Assembly (NCBI RefSeq): GCF_000428945.1 | Contig: NZ_AUAX01000005.1 | Span: 310,001 to 374,000 of the forward strand | DNA: 64,000 nucleotides | Direction: 5' to 3' | Source: Hamadaea tsunoensis DSM 44101 | GTDB taxonomy: Bacteria > Actinomycetota > Actinomycetes > Mycobacteriales > Micromonosporaceae | Shown here: positions 54,883 through 61,465 of the stretch, one piece after another | How positions within the stretch are numbered: position 1 is the first letter of the stretch | How the letters are laid out: every line of letters starts with the position of its first letter | Program-made: the position numbers and the translations under genes | Notes under the pieces: generated by a model | What the model was told of the DNA's origin: nothing | The model's database searches: none | The model's input: only the letters and a program-made list of their open reading frames with translations

Positions 54883-55752
54883 GTGCACCCTGCCCTCGAA
54901 CTCGAACTGTGTCGGACCGGCTTCCTGCGGGCACCCATCGGACCGCCCTGGGCGGTTCACGACGCGCTGCGCCGCGGACGTATCCGGCGGCTCCTGCCCG
55001 GCGTCTACGTGCGAAGCGATGACGAGGCGCCCGACATGATGCGAGCGGCCACCCTGTACCTGCGCGGCCGCGGCGCCCTCAGCCACACGACGGCACTCGC
55101 CGTGTGGGAGGTGAGCGAGTTCGGTCACGATGACACGCTCCACGTGGTCGTCCCGCGGGGAACCGGTCTGCGCTCGTCGGGTTCGGTGGTCGTCCACACC
55201 AGACATGTGCTCGGCGGCCTGCGCGAACGAAGCGGCCTACCGGTCACGATGGTCGAAGACGCGCTCGTCGACAGCTGGCCGTATCTGGATTCCGCCCGTC
55301 GTACGGGTGTCGTGTTCGCAGCGGTCGCCAACCGGCTGACCACGCCGGACCGGCTGGCCGTCCATCTGGGGCGAACGCCGCACCTGCCGGGGCGCCGAGA
55401 ACTGGTCGCCCTGGTCGATCGGATGGCAGCGGGTTGCCGGAGCCCGCTCGAAGTGTTCGGCGCCGAACACGTCTTCGCCGGGCTGGCCGGCCTGCGCAGA
55501 CAGGTCCCGGTCGAGGTCGGGCATCATCGCTACTACCTCGACCTCTATGCGCCGAGACAACGCGTCGACATCGAGCTGGACGGCGCGGCCTGGCATTCTT
55601 CGCGTGATCAGCGCGAGGCGGATCTGCGCCGCGACGCGGCCCTGGCGACCCGGGGCATCCTTGTCGTTCGCTACAGCTACAGCCGGCTGATCAGAGAGCC
55701 CGAGCGAGTCCGAAGCGAGGTGCTGGCGATTCTCGCGACACGGAGGAATTGA
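54883..55752 (+). CDS. AbiEi-like / DUF559 domain protein
   Basis: A 289-residue protein. The first 90 residues resemble the winged-helix region seen in AbiEi-type antitoxins (RGRIRRLLPGVYVRSDDEA, GALSHTTALAVWEV). The last 100 residues are a DUF559-type restriction-nuclease-like fold (YYLDLYAPRQRVDIELDGA, AWHSSRDQREADLRRDAAL, GILVVRYSYSRLI). The D-x-E-x-D/W-H layout of the very short patch repair nuclease is visible (VDIELDGAAWH). GTG at 54883 follows CAGGCT by six bases. No toxin gene is adjacent, so a toxin-antitoxin role is not supported; a stand-alone DNA-binding nuclease is possible. Confidence 0.75.
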   Translation: MHPALELELCRTGFLRAPIGPPWAVHDALRRGRIRRLLPGVYVRSDDEAPDMMRAATLYLRGRGALSHTTALAVWEVSEFGHDDTLHVVVPRGTGLRSSGSVVVHTRHVLGGLRERSGLPVTMVEDALVDSWPYLDSARRTGVVFAAVANRLTTPDRLAVHLGRTPHLPGRRELVALVDRMAAGCRSPLEVFGAEHVFAGLAGLRRQVPVEVGHHRYYLDLYAPRQRVDIELDGAAWHSSRDQREADLRRDAALATRGILVVRYSYSRLIREPERVRSEVLAILATRRN

Positions 55753-55904: not shown

Positions 55905-57287
55905 TCAGGAGTGGGGGACGCGGAAGGCTGTCAGGTGGTCGAGGAAGGCGAGGTTGGCGGCCCACCCGTCGATCGCCGGCGGGTCCGTTCCGAGCCAGAC
56001 CGGTTCGTCCGCCGGGAAGTCGTGCAGTTGGGACTCCACTCCGCCGCGGCTCACCACGACGCAGGCTTGGCGGTGCCGTGAGGCGAGTACGCACAGCCGG
56101 CCCGTCTCCAGGTGGAAGGCGGACGGGTCGCGGCGGCCCGACAGCGGGTGCCAGACGAGGGTGATCTCGAATTGGCGGCCCTGGAGCCGGTTGGCCGTGT
56201 CCACGACGACGTCGGTGAGGCCGGCGCGGTCGAGGGCGGCGCGTACGTGGTCGCGCTGGTCGGTGTGGGCGACGCCGATCGCCACGTCGGCCGGGCGCAG
56301 CGGGCGTTCCCGTCGTTCGTCGGCCGCGGTGACGTCGGCTGTGGACAGTTCGCGGGCCAGGCCGACGAGGGCCGAGACCATCTCCGGGTCGGTACGCGGA
56401 CGGTACGCGGCGGGCAGTTCCAGCAGTCCCCATCCGGTGGTGGCGGCCATCTCCAGGACGGGATGCGCCGAGGACGGGACGGAGAGCGTACGCGCGCCGG
56501 GGCCGGTTCCCGAACGGAAGGGGCGGACGTAGAACGAGGAGGAGACGACCGGGGCGGTATGCGCGGCCAGGCGCCAGCTGACCGGCAGGGGTACGACCGG
56601 CGTCGCGGGATGGTGGCGGAGCACCACGCCGGCCGCCGTGGACAACGGCCAGCCGGACAGCGTACGCACGGCGTGCTCGTCGGCGACCGTGAACGGGGAG
56701 AGCTGGCCGGGGTCGCCGACGAGCAGCAGCCGGTCGAAGAGGTCGCCGACGCGGACGAGGTTCGCCGCCGACATCTGGTACGCCTCGTCGATGATTCCCA
56801 GTTCGAATGTCCGGCCGCTGCTGAAGGACCATTTCGCGGCGGTGGCGACGATGATCCGGCAGCCGGCGAGGTCGTCGAGTTTGCCGGAGAACCGGACGCC
56901 CCGGCGGAGGAAGGACGCGGGCGCCTCCCAGCCGGAGGCGTGCAGGCGGCCGACCTCGAAGGCGGGGTGGCGGCGTACGAGGGCGGCGACGAGATCATCG
57001 GCCTGGTCGTTGGTCTGCACCACCACGGGAACGTCGGCCCCCGAAGCGACCAGGCGCAGGGCGAGGTCTCGGACGAGGGTGGACTTCCCGGCCCCGGGCG
57101 GCGAATCGACCACGACCGTCCGGGTGCCGGCCACGAGATGATCCCAGATCGCCGCCTCCGCCGCCGAATGCAGCGAAGCCGCCGAGTCCAGCGAAGCAGC
57201 CGAGTCCAGCGAAGCCGTCGAATGCAGCGAAGCCGCCGAGTCCGGCGACACCGCGGCGGCGGGCGGCGAAGACGAGGGCTCACTCAT
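55905..57287 (-). CDS. SF1-type helicase (Dna2/UPF1-like ATPase) of a nuclease-helicase pair
   Basis: A 460-residue SF1 helicase. Motif I is DSPPGAGKST (residues 61-70), motif II is LGIIDEAYQM (Asp167, Glu168), motif III GDPGQLSPF (191-199). Motif V/VI is around VVVDTANRLQGRQFEITLVW and LCVLASRHRQACVVVSRGG. The N-terminus to about residue 45 is a repetitive Ser/Ala segment. ATG at 57287 overlaps the end of the nuclease gene by eight bases. The core is shorter than that of Dna2/IGHMBP2 relatives, since the accessory barrel appears to be encoded in the partner gene. Likely works in DNA repair or defence; inference. Confidence 0.82.
   Translation of the reverse strand: MSEPSSSPPAAAVSPDSAASLHSTASLDSAASLDSAASLHSAAEAAIWDHLVAGTRTVVVDSPPGAGKSTLVRDLALRLVASGADVPVVVQTNDQADDLVAALVRRHPAFEVGRLHASGWEAPASFLRRGVRFSGKLDDLAGCRIIVATAAKWSFSSGRTFELGIIDEAYQMSAANLVRVGDLFDRLLLVGDPGQLSPFTVADEHAVRTLSGWPLSTAAGVVLRHHPATPVVPLPVSWRLAAHTAPVVSSSFYVRPFRSGTGPGARTLSVPSSAHPVLEMAATTGWGLLELPAAYRPRTDPEMVSALVGLARELSTADVTAADERRERPLRPADVAIGVAHTDQRDHVRAALDRAGLTDVVVDTANRLQGRQFEITLVWHPLSGRRDPSAFHLETGRLCVLASRHRQACVVVSRGGVESQLHDFPADEPVWLGTDPPAIDGWAANLAFLDHLTAFRVPHS
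57160..57249 (-). repeat. Five tandem 18-base repeats in the helicase gene
   Basis: Five units of 18 bases (57160-57177, 57178-57195, 57196-57213, 57214-57231, 57232-57249) encode SAASLD/H-type hexapeptides near the N-terminus. Two alternating unit types are seen (...GAATGCAGCGAA and ...GAGTCCAGCGAA). Copy number may vary between strains. Confidence 0.85.
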
Positions 57288-59412
57288 CCGCGACCACCCC
57301 GAACTGCCAGGGGAGCGCCTCCGGCAGCTGGGCCGGGAACACGTCCTCCCCGCCGAACGGCGCGAACACCACGGCCTCGCCCGCCTGCGGCAGCCGTCCG
57401 AGCGCGTTGCGCTGGACCGCTCCCTTCTGGACGGTCAGTTCGACCGACGCGGGCTCGACCGCCGTGACCGTCGCCATGACGCGCGGGTCGGCGGCGAGCC
57501 AGAGCTGCGTGCCGAGAGGGCGGGCGAACTCGGTCTCGGTCGCGAGCCAGATCCGCGGGCGCAGCAGTTCCCGGCCGGTCGGCGAGGCCAGCGTGTGCTC
57601 GCGGTCGACCTTCGCCACGGTGCCGCCGAGGGCGTCGCCGCTGAGCAGGTAGCCGGACATCACGAGCGGGTCGTCGAGCGCCATCTGCCGTTCCAGCGCG
57701 ACCGTACGCGTCTCCAGCTCGTGCAGGAACCGGTACGCGGGCACCCCGGACAGCCGGGCGGCGTACGCGGCCGTGCCTTCGGCGATGCGCTGCCGGTGGG
57801 AGGTGAACGACCAGCGGTCGCGTTCCCAGCGGTCGGCGACGTGGCCGCCGGGCTCCCCGAGCGTCCTCAGCAGCTCCAGAGACGCCCACGTCTGTCCCCA
57901 CGCGACGGTCGTCAGCGGCTCGACCGCCGCCCGGACCCCGTCGGTCCCGAGGAGGGGCGCGAGCGCCGAGTCCCAGGACGGATCGGTCACCGGCCCCGCC
58001 GGCTGATCCGCCACGGAAAGTCCCTGCCACGCAAGGAGGTAGGGGAGATGGCTCTCCTCCGCCGGCAGCCCGCCCGTCACCCAGTGCGTGCTCAGCGCGG
58101 TCGTGGCCGCCACGAGCGCGTCCGAGCCGGGCAGGACGCGGCGGGACGCGTACCAGCCCAGGTGGCGGCCGGCCAGTTGCAGGTCGGGGTCGTCGGACGC
58201 GCGCAGGTAACGGCCCAGCACATCGGTCAGCCAGTGCGCGGTGGCGGCGTTCGGCACCACGATCTGCGGCGCGTCGACGGAACACTCCACGACGGACATG
58301 TCGCGCCGCACGACGGGTTCGACCGCCTCGAATCCGCCCGCGTACGCGTTCAGGTCCAGCGCGAACTCCCGCAACGCGGCCATGCGCCGGTCGCGGTCGC
58401 GCGGTTCGTCCGCGACGACGAGCTTCCCGCCGTCCGGCGACGTCCCATAGTGGAGGGCCAGCACGGCGGCCGGCTCCCCGGCCAGGTGGTAGCCCGCCAC
58501 CACGAAGGGTGCGGCAGCCACGTGCGTGTGCCGGACGGTCGCGCGCCGGACGGCGCGTCGCTCCACCGCGGCCCGCAGCCGCAGCCGCACCGCCAGGTCC
58601 GGCGGCGCGTCCGGCAGCGCCTCGTCGATCGACGGGTGCTCGACGAGGTTGGCGACCGTCGGGCCTAGCCGGCCGACGCTCCGCGAGCGCTCCAGCTCAC
58701 CGGCGCAATGGGACATCAGCGCGCACTGCGTGCATCCGTCGCCGAACCTCGGCGCCAGCTCCGCGATCCGCGGCTCGCCGCCCCACTCCAGCCGCGCGAG
58801 CAGCCCGCGCACCCGGGCCACCCCCGGCGCCACGTCCAGCACGCTCGCGGTCGGCTTCAGGCCGAAGTTCCTCGGCAGCACCAGGAGAGTACGCGTGGAC
58901 AGCCGCTCGGCCAGTTCGCCCCGCAACGCGGTGATCGCGACGGCCAGCTCCCTCGCGGTGGCGGCCACCTTCGCCGGATCCGCGACCTCGCCGAGCATCG
59001 CGTACGTGCGGATGCCGACGAGGTGCACGGTCGGACCGCTGACGAGCAGTGCGGAGTCCAGGTCGAGGACGCCCTCCCCGAGCGGCAGCCGCTGCGGTCC
59101 GAGCACGTGCAGGCGTACGCCGGAATCCGCGGCGACCGCCGGAAGGCCGGATCCGTCCACAACGGACTCGACGGCGATGCCGAGATGTTCGGTGATCAGA
59201 GCACGGAGATCCGCGTACTCCTGGCTTCTGACGCGGGCCTCGAACTGCGCGGACCGGGCCAGGGCGAACGGCGATTGACCACTCTGCGCGGCGCCGAGCG
59301 AGACGGCGAGCGCGTCGAGGTCCGCCCCGGCCGTCACGAGCCGGGAGCGGCGCTCGCACCCCGGGGTGGCCAGGAGCCCGGCCACCCCTCGGGGCGTGAG
59401 TGGGATGGTCAC
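57280..59412 (-). CDS. Cas4/RecB-like protein with CxxCxxxxxC motif, partner of helicase
   Basis: A 710-residue protein. Cys19 and a C-terminal cluster Cys227-x2-Cys230-x5-Cys236 match the four-cysteine iron-sulfur arrangement of Cas4, AddB and similar RecB-family nucleases. A nuclease-like centre is seen between: FEAR (57-60), VLDLDSALLV (Asp117, Asp119), then VGIRTY (133-137) where the usual E-x-K is replaced by G-I-R. DPAKVAATARELAVAI is typical of these folds. Residues about 270-710 are less conserved, and about 640-705 look like a beta barrel as in SF1 helicase accessory domains. GTG at 59412 follows the dapD TAG directly. Overlaps the helicase by eight bases, so both are one operon. Confidence 0.75.
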   Translation of the reverse strand: MTIPLTPRGVAGLLATPGCERRSRLVTAGADLDALAVSLGAAQSGQSPFALARSAQFEARVRSQEYADLRALITEHLGIAVESVVDGSGLPAVAADSGVRLHVLGPQRLPLGEGVLDLDSALLVSGPTVHLVGIRTYAMLGEVADPAKVAATARELAVAITALRGELAERLSTRTLLVLPRNFGLKPTASVLDVAPGVARVRGLLARLEWGGEPRIAELAPRFGDGCTQCALMSHCAGELERSRSVGRLGPTVANLVEHPSIDEALPDAPPDLAVRLRLRAAVERRAVRRATVRHTHVAAAPFVVAGYHLAGEPAAVLALHYGTSPDGGKLVVADEPRDRDRRMAALREFALDLNAYAGGFEAVEPVVRRDMSVVECSVDAPQIVVPNAATAHWLTDVLGRYLRASDDPDLQLAGRHLGWYASRRVLPGSDALVAATTALSTHWVTGGLPAEESHLPYLLAWQGLSVADQPAGPVTDPSWDSALAPLLGTDGVRAAVEPLTTVAWGQTWASLELLRTLGEPGGHVADRWERDRWSFTSHRQRIAEGTAAYAARLSGVPAYRFLHELETRTVALERQMALDDPLVMSGYLLSGDALGGTVAKVDREHTLASPTGRELLRPRIWLATETEFARPLGTQLWLAADPRVMATVTAVEPASVELTVQKGAVQRNALGRLPQAGEAVVFAPFGGEDVFPAQLPEALPWQFGVVADE

Positions 59413-60375
59413 CTAGTTGGCGTGCAGCGCCGCGTTGAGCGCGATGCCGTGGCCCTCGCGGGGTGTGGCCTCGAGCGCGCCGGTCACGGAGTTGCGCCAG
59501 TAGCGGATGCCGTTCGCGCCGGACAGCTCGCGGGCCTTGACCACGCGGCCGTCGGGCAGCGTCAGCTTCGAGCCGGCGGTGATGTAGCAGCCGGCCTCGA
59601 CCACGCAGTCGTCGCCGAGCGAGATCCCGATGCCGCCGTTCGCGCCCAGCAGGCAGCGTTCGCCGATCGAGATGATCTCCTTGCCGCCGCCGGACAGGGT
59701 GCCCATGATCGACGATCCCGCCCCGATGTCGGAGCCGTCGCCGACGACCACGCCGGCCACGATCCGGCCCTCGACCATGCTGGTACCGAGGGTGCCGGCA
59801 TTGAAGTTCACGAAGCCCTCGTGCATGACGGTGGTGCCCTCGGCCAGGTGGGCGCCCAGGCGGACCCGGTCCGCGTCGGCGATGCGTACGCCGCTCGGCA
59901 CGACGTAGTCGGTCATCCGCGGGAACTTGTCGACACCGTAGACGGACAGGTGCCCGCCGGTGGCCCGGACCGCGAAACGCAGCTCGTCGACCCGGTCGAT
60001 CGGGCACGGCCCGGCGCTCGTCCACGCCACGTTCGGCAGCGCGCCGAAGATGCCGTCGAGATTCGCCTGGTGCGGCTTGATGATCCGGTGCGAGAGCAGG
60101 TGCAGCCGCAGGTACGCGTCCGCCGTACCGTCCGGCGCGTCGGCCAGGCTGGCGATGATCGTGGTGACCGGCGTCAGCCGCATGCCGAGCGGCCGGTCCA
60201 CCTCGTCGAACTTGGGCGCCTCGCCGGGCTCGCCGAGGCCGAGATGGCCGGCGGGGTACCAGACGTCGAGAATTTGCCCGTCCTCAGTGACGGTGGCTAG
60301 TCCGTGGCCATATGCCGAGGAGCGCTCGCGCGAGTCGCCAGGAGTTCGGTCAGCCCTGTCGGTCAGTCTGCTCAC
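59413..60375 (-). CDS. dapD: Tetrahydrodipicolinate N-succinyltransferase
   Basis: DapD adds succinyl from succinyl-CoA to tetrahydrodipicolinate in the DAP/lysine route that feeds the cell wall. The protein, about 320 residues, has the actinobacterial form: an N-terminal alpha/beta part ([20 protein letters not shown]) and a left-handed beta helix of hexapeptide repeats ([40 protein letters not shown]). Motif [16 protein letters not shown] is typical. GTG at 60375 is chosen; GTG at 60381 is the alternative. Its stop directly abuts the nuclease gene. Confidence 0.9.
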
Positions 60376-60382
60376 GGTCACA

Positions 60383-60389
60383 TAGGCTA
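60383..60389. promoter_or_regulatory. Overlapping divergent -10 boxes, dapD / dapE
   Basis: TAGGCT (60383-60388, + strand) ends six bases before the dapE ATG. TAGCCT on the minus strand (60389 down to 60384) can serve dapD. They overlap by five bases in ATAGGCTAC, so the two genes compete for one polymerase site. Confidence 0.5.
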
Positions 60390-60394
60390 CCTGC

Positions 60395-61465
60395 ATGGTT
60401 ACGGTGCTCACCCCACAGGTGCTGGCGGATCCCGTCGAGTTGACCCGCGCCCTCGTCGACATCGAGTCGGTCTCCGGCAACGAGGACGAGATCGCGACGG
60501 CCGTGGTCGACGCGCTTGCCGGCCTCGGCCACCTGACCGTCGAGCGGATCGGCAACACCGTCGTCGCGCGTACGCACCTGGGTCGCGACCAGCGGGTCGT
60601 CCTCGCCGGGCACCTCGACACCGTGCCGCTCGCGGGGAACTTCCCGTCGCGTACGGCCGACGGGATCATGTGGGGCTGCGGCACCTCGGACATGAAGAGC
60701 GGCACCGCGCTCGCCCTGCACCTCGCCGCGACGGTGGCCGAACCGAAGTTCGACGTCACCTACTTCTTCTACGAGGCCGAAGAGGTCGAATCGGAGCGCA
60801 ACGGGCTCTACCTGATCTCGCAGGCCCGCCCGGAGCTGCTCGCCGCCGACTTCGCGATCCTCCTCGAACCGACGTACGGCGCGGTCGAGGCCGGCTGCCA
60901 GGGCACGATGCGGGTCGTCGTCACCACGGAGGGCAAACGCGCCCACTCGGCCCGGTCCTGGCTCGGCGTCAACGCGATCCACGCGGCCGGCGACGTCCTC
61001 ACCCGGCTGTCGGCGTACGCGGCGCGTACCGTCGAGATCGACGGCTGTGTCTACCGCGAGGGCCTCAACGCCGTGACCATCCGGGGCGGCGTGGCCGGCA
61101 ACGTGATCCCGGACGCGTGCGAGATCGAGGTCAACTACCGGTTCGCCCCGTCCCGCTCGGTCGAAGAGGCGTACGCCCACCTCGTCGAGGTGTTCGACGG
61201 CTACCACGTGAAGCTGACCGACGCCGCGCCCGGCGCCCTGCCCGGCCTCACCCTGCCGCCCGCCGCCCAGTTCATCGAGGCGACCGGCGCCCGGCCGGCG
61301 GCGAAGCTGGGCTGGACCGACGTGTCGCGCTTCGCGGGGCTCGGCATCCCCGCGCTCAACTTCGGCCCGGGCGATCCCAACCTCGCCCACAAGCCGGAGG
61401 AACACGTCGAGATCGAGAAGATCGTGGCCGGCGCCCACATCCTCCGCGCCTGGCTCACCGCCTGA
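60395..61465 (+). CDS. dapE: Succinyl-diaminopimelate desuccinylase
   Basis: DapE removes succinyl from succinyl-DAP, giving LL-DAP. The 356-residue M20 metallopeptidase has the zinc ligands [31 protein letters not shown] (bridging Asp) and [15 protein letters not shown] (catalytic Glu then metal Glu), then [20 protein letters not shown] and [20 protein letters not shown]. The lid domain is in the middle. ATG at 60395. It is divergent from dapD, so the two enzymes that bracket DapC are expressed from one intergenic site. Confidence 0.95.

Follow-up and report, generated by a model that had tools for sequence, protein, structure and literature searches.

What remains of a nuclease-helicase once its nuclease site appears to have been lost? 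This question is raised by two genes lying directly behind dapD on the minus strand of the window, a 64,000-nucleotide stretch of Hamadaea tsunoensis DSM 44101 (contig NZ_AUAX01000005.1, positions 310,001 to 374,000; the genome is 9.48 Mb). They encode a 710-amino acid (aa) protein named AB, in which a putative iron-sulfur (Fe-S) nuclease or pseudonuclease (A) is fused to a partner (B), and a superfamily 1 (SF1) helicase (C). Comparison with related loci and structural models makes it probable, but well short of certain, that this operon is a split Bad/DNA2-like motor encoded in pieces, in which the nuclease of the window's branch has turned into a structural DNA-binding part. The genes are as follows (ORF, open reading frame).

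55905..57287, minus strand: C, SF1 helicase of the DNA2/SMUBP2/UPF1 group, 460 aa, ATG start (Pfam AAA_11 and AAA_30; DNA2 at 3.4e-13 by PDB profile)
57280..59412, minus strand: AB, 710 aa, GTG start, putative Fe-S (pseudo)nuclease A fused to partner B (an ORF; A and B are separate in 55/59 loci)
59413..60759, minus strand: dapD-containing ORF whose stop abuts the start of AB (TIGR03535, 463 bits; model-matching part 59416-60318)

An initial annotation of the window, made from its letters, had listed both ORFs, four cysteines and a G-I-R in place of E-x-K in AB, a 0-base junction with dapD and an 8-base overlap with C, all of which are real. The dapD stop codon and the GTG of AB are contiguous (...AACTAG followed directly by GTG...), and the AB-C junction reads ATGAGTGA. 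In its own genome, the protein is found as a single copy at an E value of 0.001.

Of 61 relatives, 23 carry the window protein; within the class the figure is 29 of 197 genomes and within the family 205 of 300, the genome of H. tsunoensis being included in each sample. Gene order was compared in 59 loci, i.e. the window and 58 fetched stretches containing A and B (40 + 18, with some genomes giving two). A and B are encoded by different ORFs in 55 of these, and by a single ORF in the window, L058, L059 and L060. C is found downstream of B, on the same strand and within ∼320 bases, in 49 loci; it is kilobases away in four and outside the fetched stretch in six, which leaves 53 loci with C in the stretch. 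Among the 300 family genomes, 204 encode both AB and C, 93 lack both, and three are discordant (AB alone in G028, at the end of a contig in an 80%-complete assembly; C alone in G001, at a contig end, and in G418), as assessed with different E-value limits for AB and C (1e-3 and 1e-40, respectively). Considering both the common order in relatives and this co-occurrence, the pieces appear to belong together. The annotation had described AB and C as halves of one nuclease-helicase, and that part stands, but comparison of the ORFs indicates a machine of three parts, A, B, and C, with the 710-aa protein as an A+B fusion.

B was detected in 13 of 346 genomes when the phylum was sampled, and a large genus, g75 (probably Streptomyces), has it in 141 of 150 species. 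The C profile, run on ten genomes of the order, matched only weakly, in five of them and within long open frames (890-1967 aa).

The predicted nuclease and its motifs occupy the first part of AB (pLDDT, predicted local distance difference test).

58588..59412, minus strand: A half, residues 1-275, predicted Cas4/Dna2-type nuclease fold (AlphaFold pLDDT 91.9; Foldseek)
59347..59364, minus strand: PGCERR, with the first cysteine, Cys19 (invariant, 55/55)
59053..59067, minus strand: LDLDS, counterpart of LEPD at the metal-binding acid position (alignment of A)
59002..59016, minus strand: GIRTY (G133-I-R135), degenerate E-x-K, EIKSF in relatives (alignment of A)
58930..58956, minus strand: ARELAVAIT, degenerate Q-xxx-Y (alignment of A)
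58705..58734, minus strand: CTQCALMSHC, Cys227-x2-Cys230-x5-Cys236 (invariant, 55/55)

Foldseek analysis of the A model returned ten PDB matches at or below 0.001, all from one nuclease group: Cas4 (SSO0001, 2.4e-4), Dna2 (4.3e-4), human MGME1 (4.6e-4), Cas4-Cas1-Cas2, and ACE1. The four cysteines show no variation in 55 of 55 aligned A sequences, the alignment having taken in 55 of the 59 loci. Both the fold and the cysteine layout of A are like those of Cas4/AddB Fe-S nucleases, the layout in AddB being C-x2-C-x5-C. Together with the alignment of the motifs, these findings support the view, already put forward in the annotation, that A has a Cas4/Dna2-type Fe-S nuclease fold with a lost site, in which the cysteines would hold an Fe-S cluster. 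Sequence searches of Pfam, NCBIfam, PADLOC and PDB found nothing for the 710-aa protein, the intact A of a relative (L070) scores PDDEXK_1 at 9.8e-4, below the cut-off, and comparison of the A and B profiles gives nothing. A mixed A + B alignment placed the A rows wrongly and was not used for folding.

The window belongs to a branch of 17 loci (the window, L058-L062 and L124-L134), in which the motifs of A were counted by eye off the alignment. E-[IV]-K-S-F is kept in 41 of the 42 loci outside this branch, and E-P-D and Q-xxx-Y in all 42. Within the branch, the lysine of E-x-K is replaced by arginine in 17/17 loci and Q-xxx-Y is broken in every one, with a single locus keeping the Q. Neither the cysteines nor the G-I-R are therefore chance features of one sequence; the degenerate site is a property of the window's branch, and most relatives have an intact one. 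In a tree computed from C alone, with 53 rows and a midpoint root, and with a long-branch warning concerning L087 above all, the 17 branch loci form one side of a branch with a Shimodaira-Hasegawa-like approximate likelihood ratio test (SH-aLRT) value of 100, and 13 loci linked to dapD form one side with a value of 92. Loss of the site thus tracks a clade defined by another gene. Four branch members (g13) are not beside dapD.

The intact form of A is probably the older state, because intact A with B and C is also found in a distant homologue (L163 in G746, kinship "same phylum"). Indeed, L163 keeps EIKTY, Q-xxx-Y, and the cysteines, and has B (found at an E value of 4e-19, first 290 positions) and C behind A. 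The exception outside the branch, L085, has L-I-R-S-F; it groups with intact rows in the C tree and is flanked by HmaA and Ppr defence genes. Here the site would have been lost a second time, independently of the branch.

Could the branch still cut DNA, with arginine standing in for lysine, the remaining acids holding the metal, and a shifted specificity? Replacement of lysine by arginine is no proof of inactivity, the E of E-x-K is kept in nine of the 17 loci (lost in eight), the D position is acidic in 15, and the A domain is under purifying selection. We nevertheless consider this unlikely. The E is G or A in the window and its three nearest kin, and Q-xxx-Y is broken throughout. Moreover, the ratio of nonsynonymous to synonymous substitutions (dN/dS, pairwise medians) of A is 0.38-0.39 in three branch groups, above the 0.26 of six intact g75 loci. 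The corresponding values are 0.21-0.26 in the branch versus 0.28 in g75 for B, and 0.17-0.25 versus 0.14 for C. With median dN/dS values of A at 0.38-0.39 in the branch, the protein is kept, under somewhat relaxed selection.

The same values bear on a quite improbable alternative, according to which the operon is a decaying remnant whose function is lost, with A on its way out. The window A is shortened and degenerate, its dN/dS is raised, and in a related locus of genus g17 the C gene falls into two overlapping ORFs (L126:9112-10388), by a frameshift or a sequencing error. However, the median dN/dS values of A, B, and C are all well below 1, the four cysteines of A and the checked helicase motifs of C are kept, and all three parts are present in each of the nine g17 loci that were fetched (11 g17 genomes had a match).

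The helicase motifs of C were located in an alignment of 31 C rows.

57078..57101, minus strand: Walker A, PPGAGKST (C alignment)
56775..56795, minus strand: Walker B, IIDEAYQ (C alignment)
56178-56198, minus strand: motif V, TANRLQG (C alignment)
56070..56084, minus strand: motif VI, ASRHR (C alignment)

Walker A and B, GDPGQL, TANRLQG, and SRHR are invariant in these rows. C scores above cut-off for Pfam AAA_11 and AAA_30. Its best match in a single-sequence PDB search is DNA2 (1.3e-5), and its profile matched 18 PDB sequences, headed by DNA2 (3.4e-13) and followed by SMUBP2 and UPF1. A scan of C with PADLOC gave partial matches only. The annotation's identification of an SF1 helicase partner is thus borne out and, by kinship, C would be an SF1B motor moving 5' to 3'. 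At its start, C contains an 18-base tandem repeat (4.9 copies, 57160-57248) encoding a low-complexity N terminus of ∼37 aa rich in Ser, Ala, and Leu, which is absent from the ten related C proteins compared.

Between the predicted nuclease and the motor lies B.

57283..58629, minus strand: B half as modelled, residues 262-710 (AlphaFold pLDDT 90.4; no Pfam, NCBIfam or PDB match)
57361..57630, minus strand: C-terminal beta barrel of B, residues ∼595-684 (secondary structure of the model; weak Foldseek barrel matches)

The C-terminal barrel noticed in the annotation is present in the AlphaFold model, but Foldseek gave no significant match that would liken it to an accessory domain of helicases: senataxin came first (0.03) and Dna2 third (0.07), neither exceeding a TM-score of 0.15, and the barrel matches span ∼90 residues. 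No significant match to B was found in a viral fold library either. Dna2 and UPF1 also carry a barrel ahead of their Walker A motif. Because the barrel of B likewise precedes Walker A, its position suggests that it may play a role like that of helicase domain 1B.

The closest characterized enzyme to this operon appears to be Bad of Geobacillus stearothermophilus, which is described as joining an iron-staple nuclease to an SF1B helicase, with a middle domain of unknown kind between the two (PMC7430649). A second class is mentioned in Mycobacteria and Rhodococcus (PMC7430649). Bad and the operon share the order of nuclease, middle part and helicase, the four cysteines and a sporadic distribution in bacteria. 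Bad, however, is one polypeptide with a working nuclease, whereas the operon consists of two genes here and of three in most relatives, and its nuclease is degenerate in the window's branch; B may correspond to the Bad middle domain by its place in the order. Of the hallmarks of Bad and DNA2, we found a RecB-family fold on the N-terminal side (in a model, with modest TM-scores), four strictly conserved cysteines that span the domain and intact helicase motifs, but neither intact nuclease motifs in the window's branch nor a single polypeptide. Eukaryotic DNA2 (PDB 5ean and 5eaw) matches the fold of A and the helicase C in the same order, whereas the operon is split and bacterial, its B has no significant counterpart, and its nuclease site is lost in the branch.

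Other known systems fit less well. Cas4 acting with CRISPR was set aside, as the 710-aa protein matches 0 Pfam/NCBIfam families. AddB/AdnB was set aside because C is not UvrD-like (SF1A), its 18 PDB matches being headed by DNA2, SMUBP2, and UPF1; the helicase is nearest DNA2/UPF1, unlike that of AddAB. UvrD-Cas4 fusions and Cas4-like/helicase operons, as described in PMC5704561, also place a Cas4-like nuclease beside or in fusion with a helicase, but those helicases are UvrD-like or COG1205, unlike C. The terms "actino" and "streptomyces" occur 0 times in the main text of that paper. Among the open-access papers listed, none describes a Dna2-like operon of actinobacteria that is split in this way, and we do not claim its absence from print.

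In the assembly that we propose, A would be the iron-staple nuclease domain, B a partner with a C-terminal barrel and C the SF1 motor, joined in the order A-B-C, with A fused to B in Hamadaea and one more genus. In the branch, A has lost the catalytic lysine and Q-xxx-Y, whereas the cluster cysteines and the predicted fold are retained; it would hold or guide single-stranded DNA ahead of the motor without cutting it. As unwinding by DNA2 and Bad is unmasked when the nuclease is inactivated (for Bad, PMC7430649), the branch motor may be constitutively unwinding and perhaps DNA-looping. It may act in repair or fork processing, with cutting left to other nucleases. Central to this proposal is that the branch would have by evolution what the Bad authors made by mutation; we infer the loss of cutting, the polarity and the cellular role. 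That the nuclease ahead of the motor inhibits unwinding by the same enzyme is called counterintuitive for DNA2-like enzymes (PMC7430649). The branch may be a naturally cutting-free motor, most relatives keeping an intact cutter, and a natural branch that has lost the cut but kept the cysteines and motor, alongside intact relatives, would make the use of the inhibitory nuclease directly testable.

To the acids retained in the branch are added several points that weigh against this proposal. For A, the TM-scores of the Foldseek matches lie at 0.22-0.39 and their root mean square deviations at 8-16 Å, and the A profile finds no nuclease among PDB sequences, the matches being two designed helical repeat proteins and two others near an E value of 1, all taken as artefacts. 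B has no significant likeness to solved structures, either in the PDB profile search or by Foldseek (none at or below 0.001). In several genera, C is kilobases to tens of kilobases from AB, so gene order does not require a tight complex. Finally, a genome of the same genus, G003, also has a separate intact A-B-C with SbcCD-like genes (L076), which indicates that dead and live forms can coexist.

Does the position behind dapD matter? The gene adjoins A in 13 loci of three genera, i.e. the window, L058, and L059 (g1), L060 (g10) and the nine g17 loci; it was not found in the fetched stretches of the other 46 (four of the branch and 42 outside it). In L060, dapD and A overlap by 4 bases, and the window, L058, and L059 have stop-start junctions. 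These junctions, and the recurrence of the arrangement in three genera, are what could be said for expression coupled to dapD serving cell-wall or sporulation biology. This is highly unlikely, considering the 46 loci in which dapD was not found and L124, where a hairpin-like sequence and a separate ribosome-binding site were seen by eye between dapD and A. The annotation's proposal that expression is tied to wall-precursor synthesis is not supported, and the dapD link is lineage-specific. The flanks of the dap region are conserved, with dapE, an aminotransferase and others common to dapD-linked loci, which would fit one old insertion into this region.

Outside the branch, 21 of 42 loci encode another protein, D (281 aa in L148), directly upstream of A; within it, 0/17 do. 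None of the A, B, and D proteins scanned reached the cut-off of a Pfam or NCBIfam family or matched PADLOC; for D, four of five scanned had no Pfam match at all and L087 gave one marginal, coiled-coil-like match. This contrasts with the wide occurrence of B in g75. One plasmid copy and four of the 59 loci have SbcC/SbcD-like genes as neighbors, a pairing that occurs at three places in the C tree.

Some neighborhoods are suggestive of anti-phage or anti-plasmid defence. On two Streptomyces plasmids (L148 and L149), D-A-B-C precedes genes annotated DUF3375, DUF4194, ATP-binding, and JetD, the last two of which match Wadjet JetC1 and JetD1 in L148; the SbcCD-like genes are intact in L148, and only fragments lie on that side in L149. 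L085 lies between HmaA and Ppr genes and L096 near JetA2/JetB2, and in PMC7430649 the possibility is raised that Bad itself is a restriction enzyme. A defence system is nonetheless a rather unlikely explanation. The window copy is in the dap region with its conserved flanks, and neighbors are common to the six g75 loci compared. Known PADLOC defence systems were set aside, with no component match for A, B, and D and partial matches for C. In a scan of 93 of 150 selected neighbor proteins (those over 700 aa being left out), matches at 1e-10 involved eight PADLOC protein names, with no more than two members matching each. Because B is present in nearly all g75 species, housekeeping or repair is favored over defence for the conserved copies, and we read some extra copies as mobile and possibly defensive.

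A C search of plasmids returned 56 records, 53 of them at <60% identity. Six stretches were opened (L169-L174), three from Rhodococcus, two from Mycolicibacterium, and one from Xylanimonas. In all six, a protein named B' (388-409 aa) precedes a C-like helicase (C'), with a transposase gene between them in L172, and A was not found within the stretch at an E value of 1. A VWA-like gene lies upstream of B'-C' in six of six plasmids and an AAA/MoxR-type ATPase gene in five of six; the L172 stretch ends before the ATPase position, and in L169 both genes are unannotated, with the ATPase over two frames. A small protein is also encoded in this operon (59-66 aa in the three translated). Comparison of B with B' (three sequences) by hhalign gave an E value of 1.3e-4 and a probability of 53 over 252 columns, and the B profile scored the six B' at best 7.6e-5 (L172), 0.005-0.22 in four, and nothing <1 in L170. 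B' therefore looks like a remote relative of B.

The weak similarity and gene order suggest that B-C may be a core with the nuclease as one of several partners. It is conceivable, though we would not favor it, that B-C is a two-piece SF1B motor exchanging its partner: a live nuclease (D-A-B-C, some with SbcCD-like genes), a dead nuclease leaving the motor permanently unmasked (dapD branch), or a MoxR-type ATPase and a VWA-like protein (B'-C'). If so, nuclease-dead mutants of Bad and DNA2 would have their natural counterpart in the dapD branch.

A protein with no best match at 1e-15 among the genes called in L058-L062 and L124-L134 is encoded convergently to C in the window (54883-55752, plus strand), and it carries a DUF559/MTES_1575 restriction-endonuclease-like C terminus.

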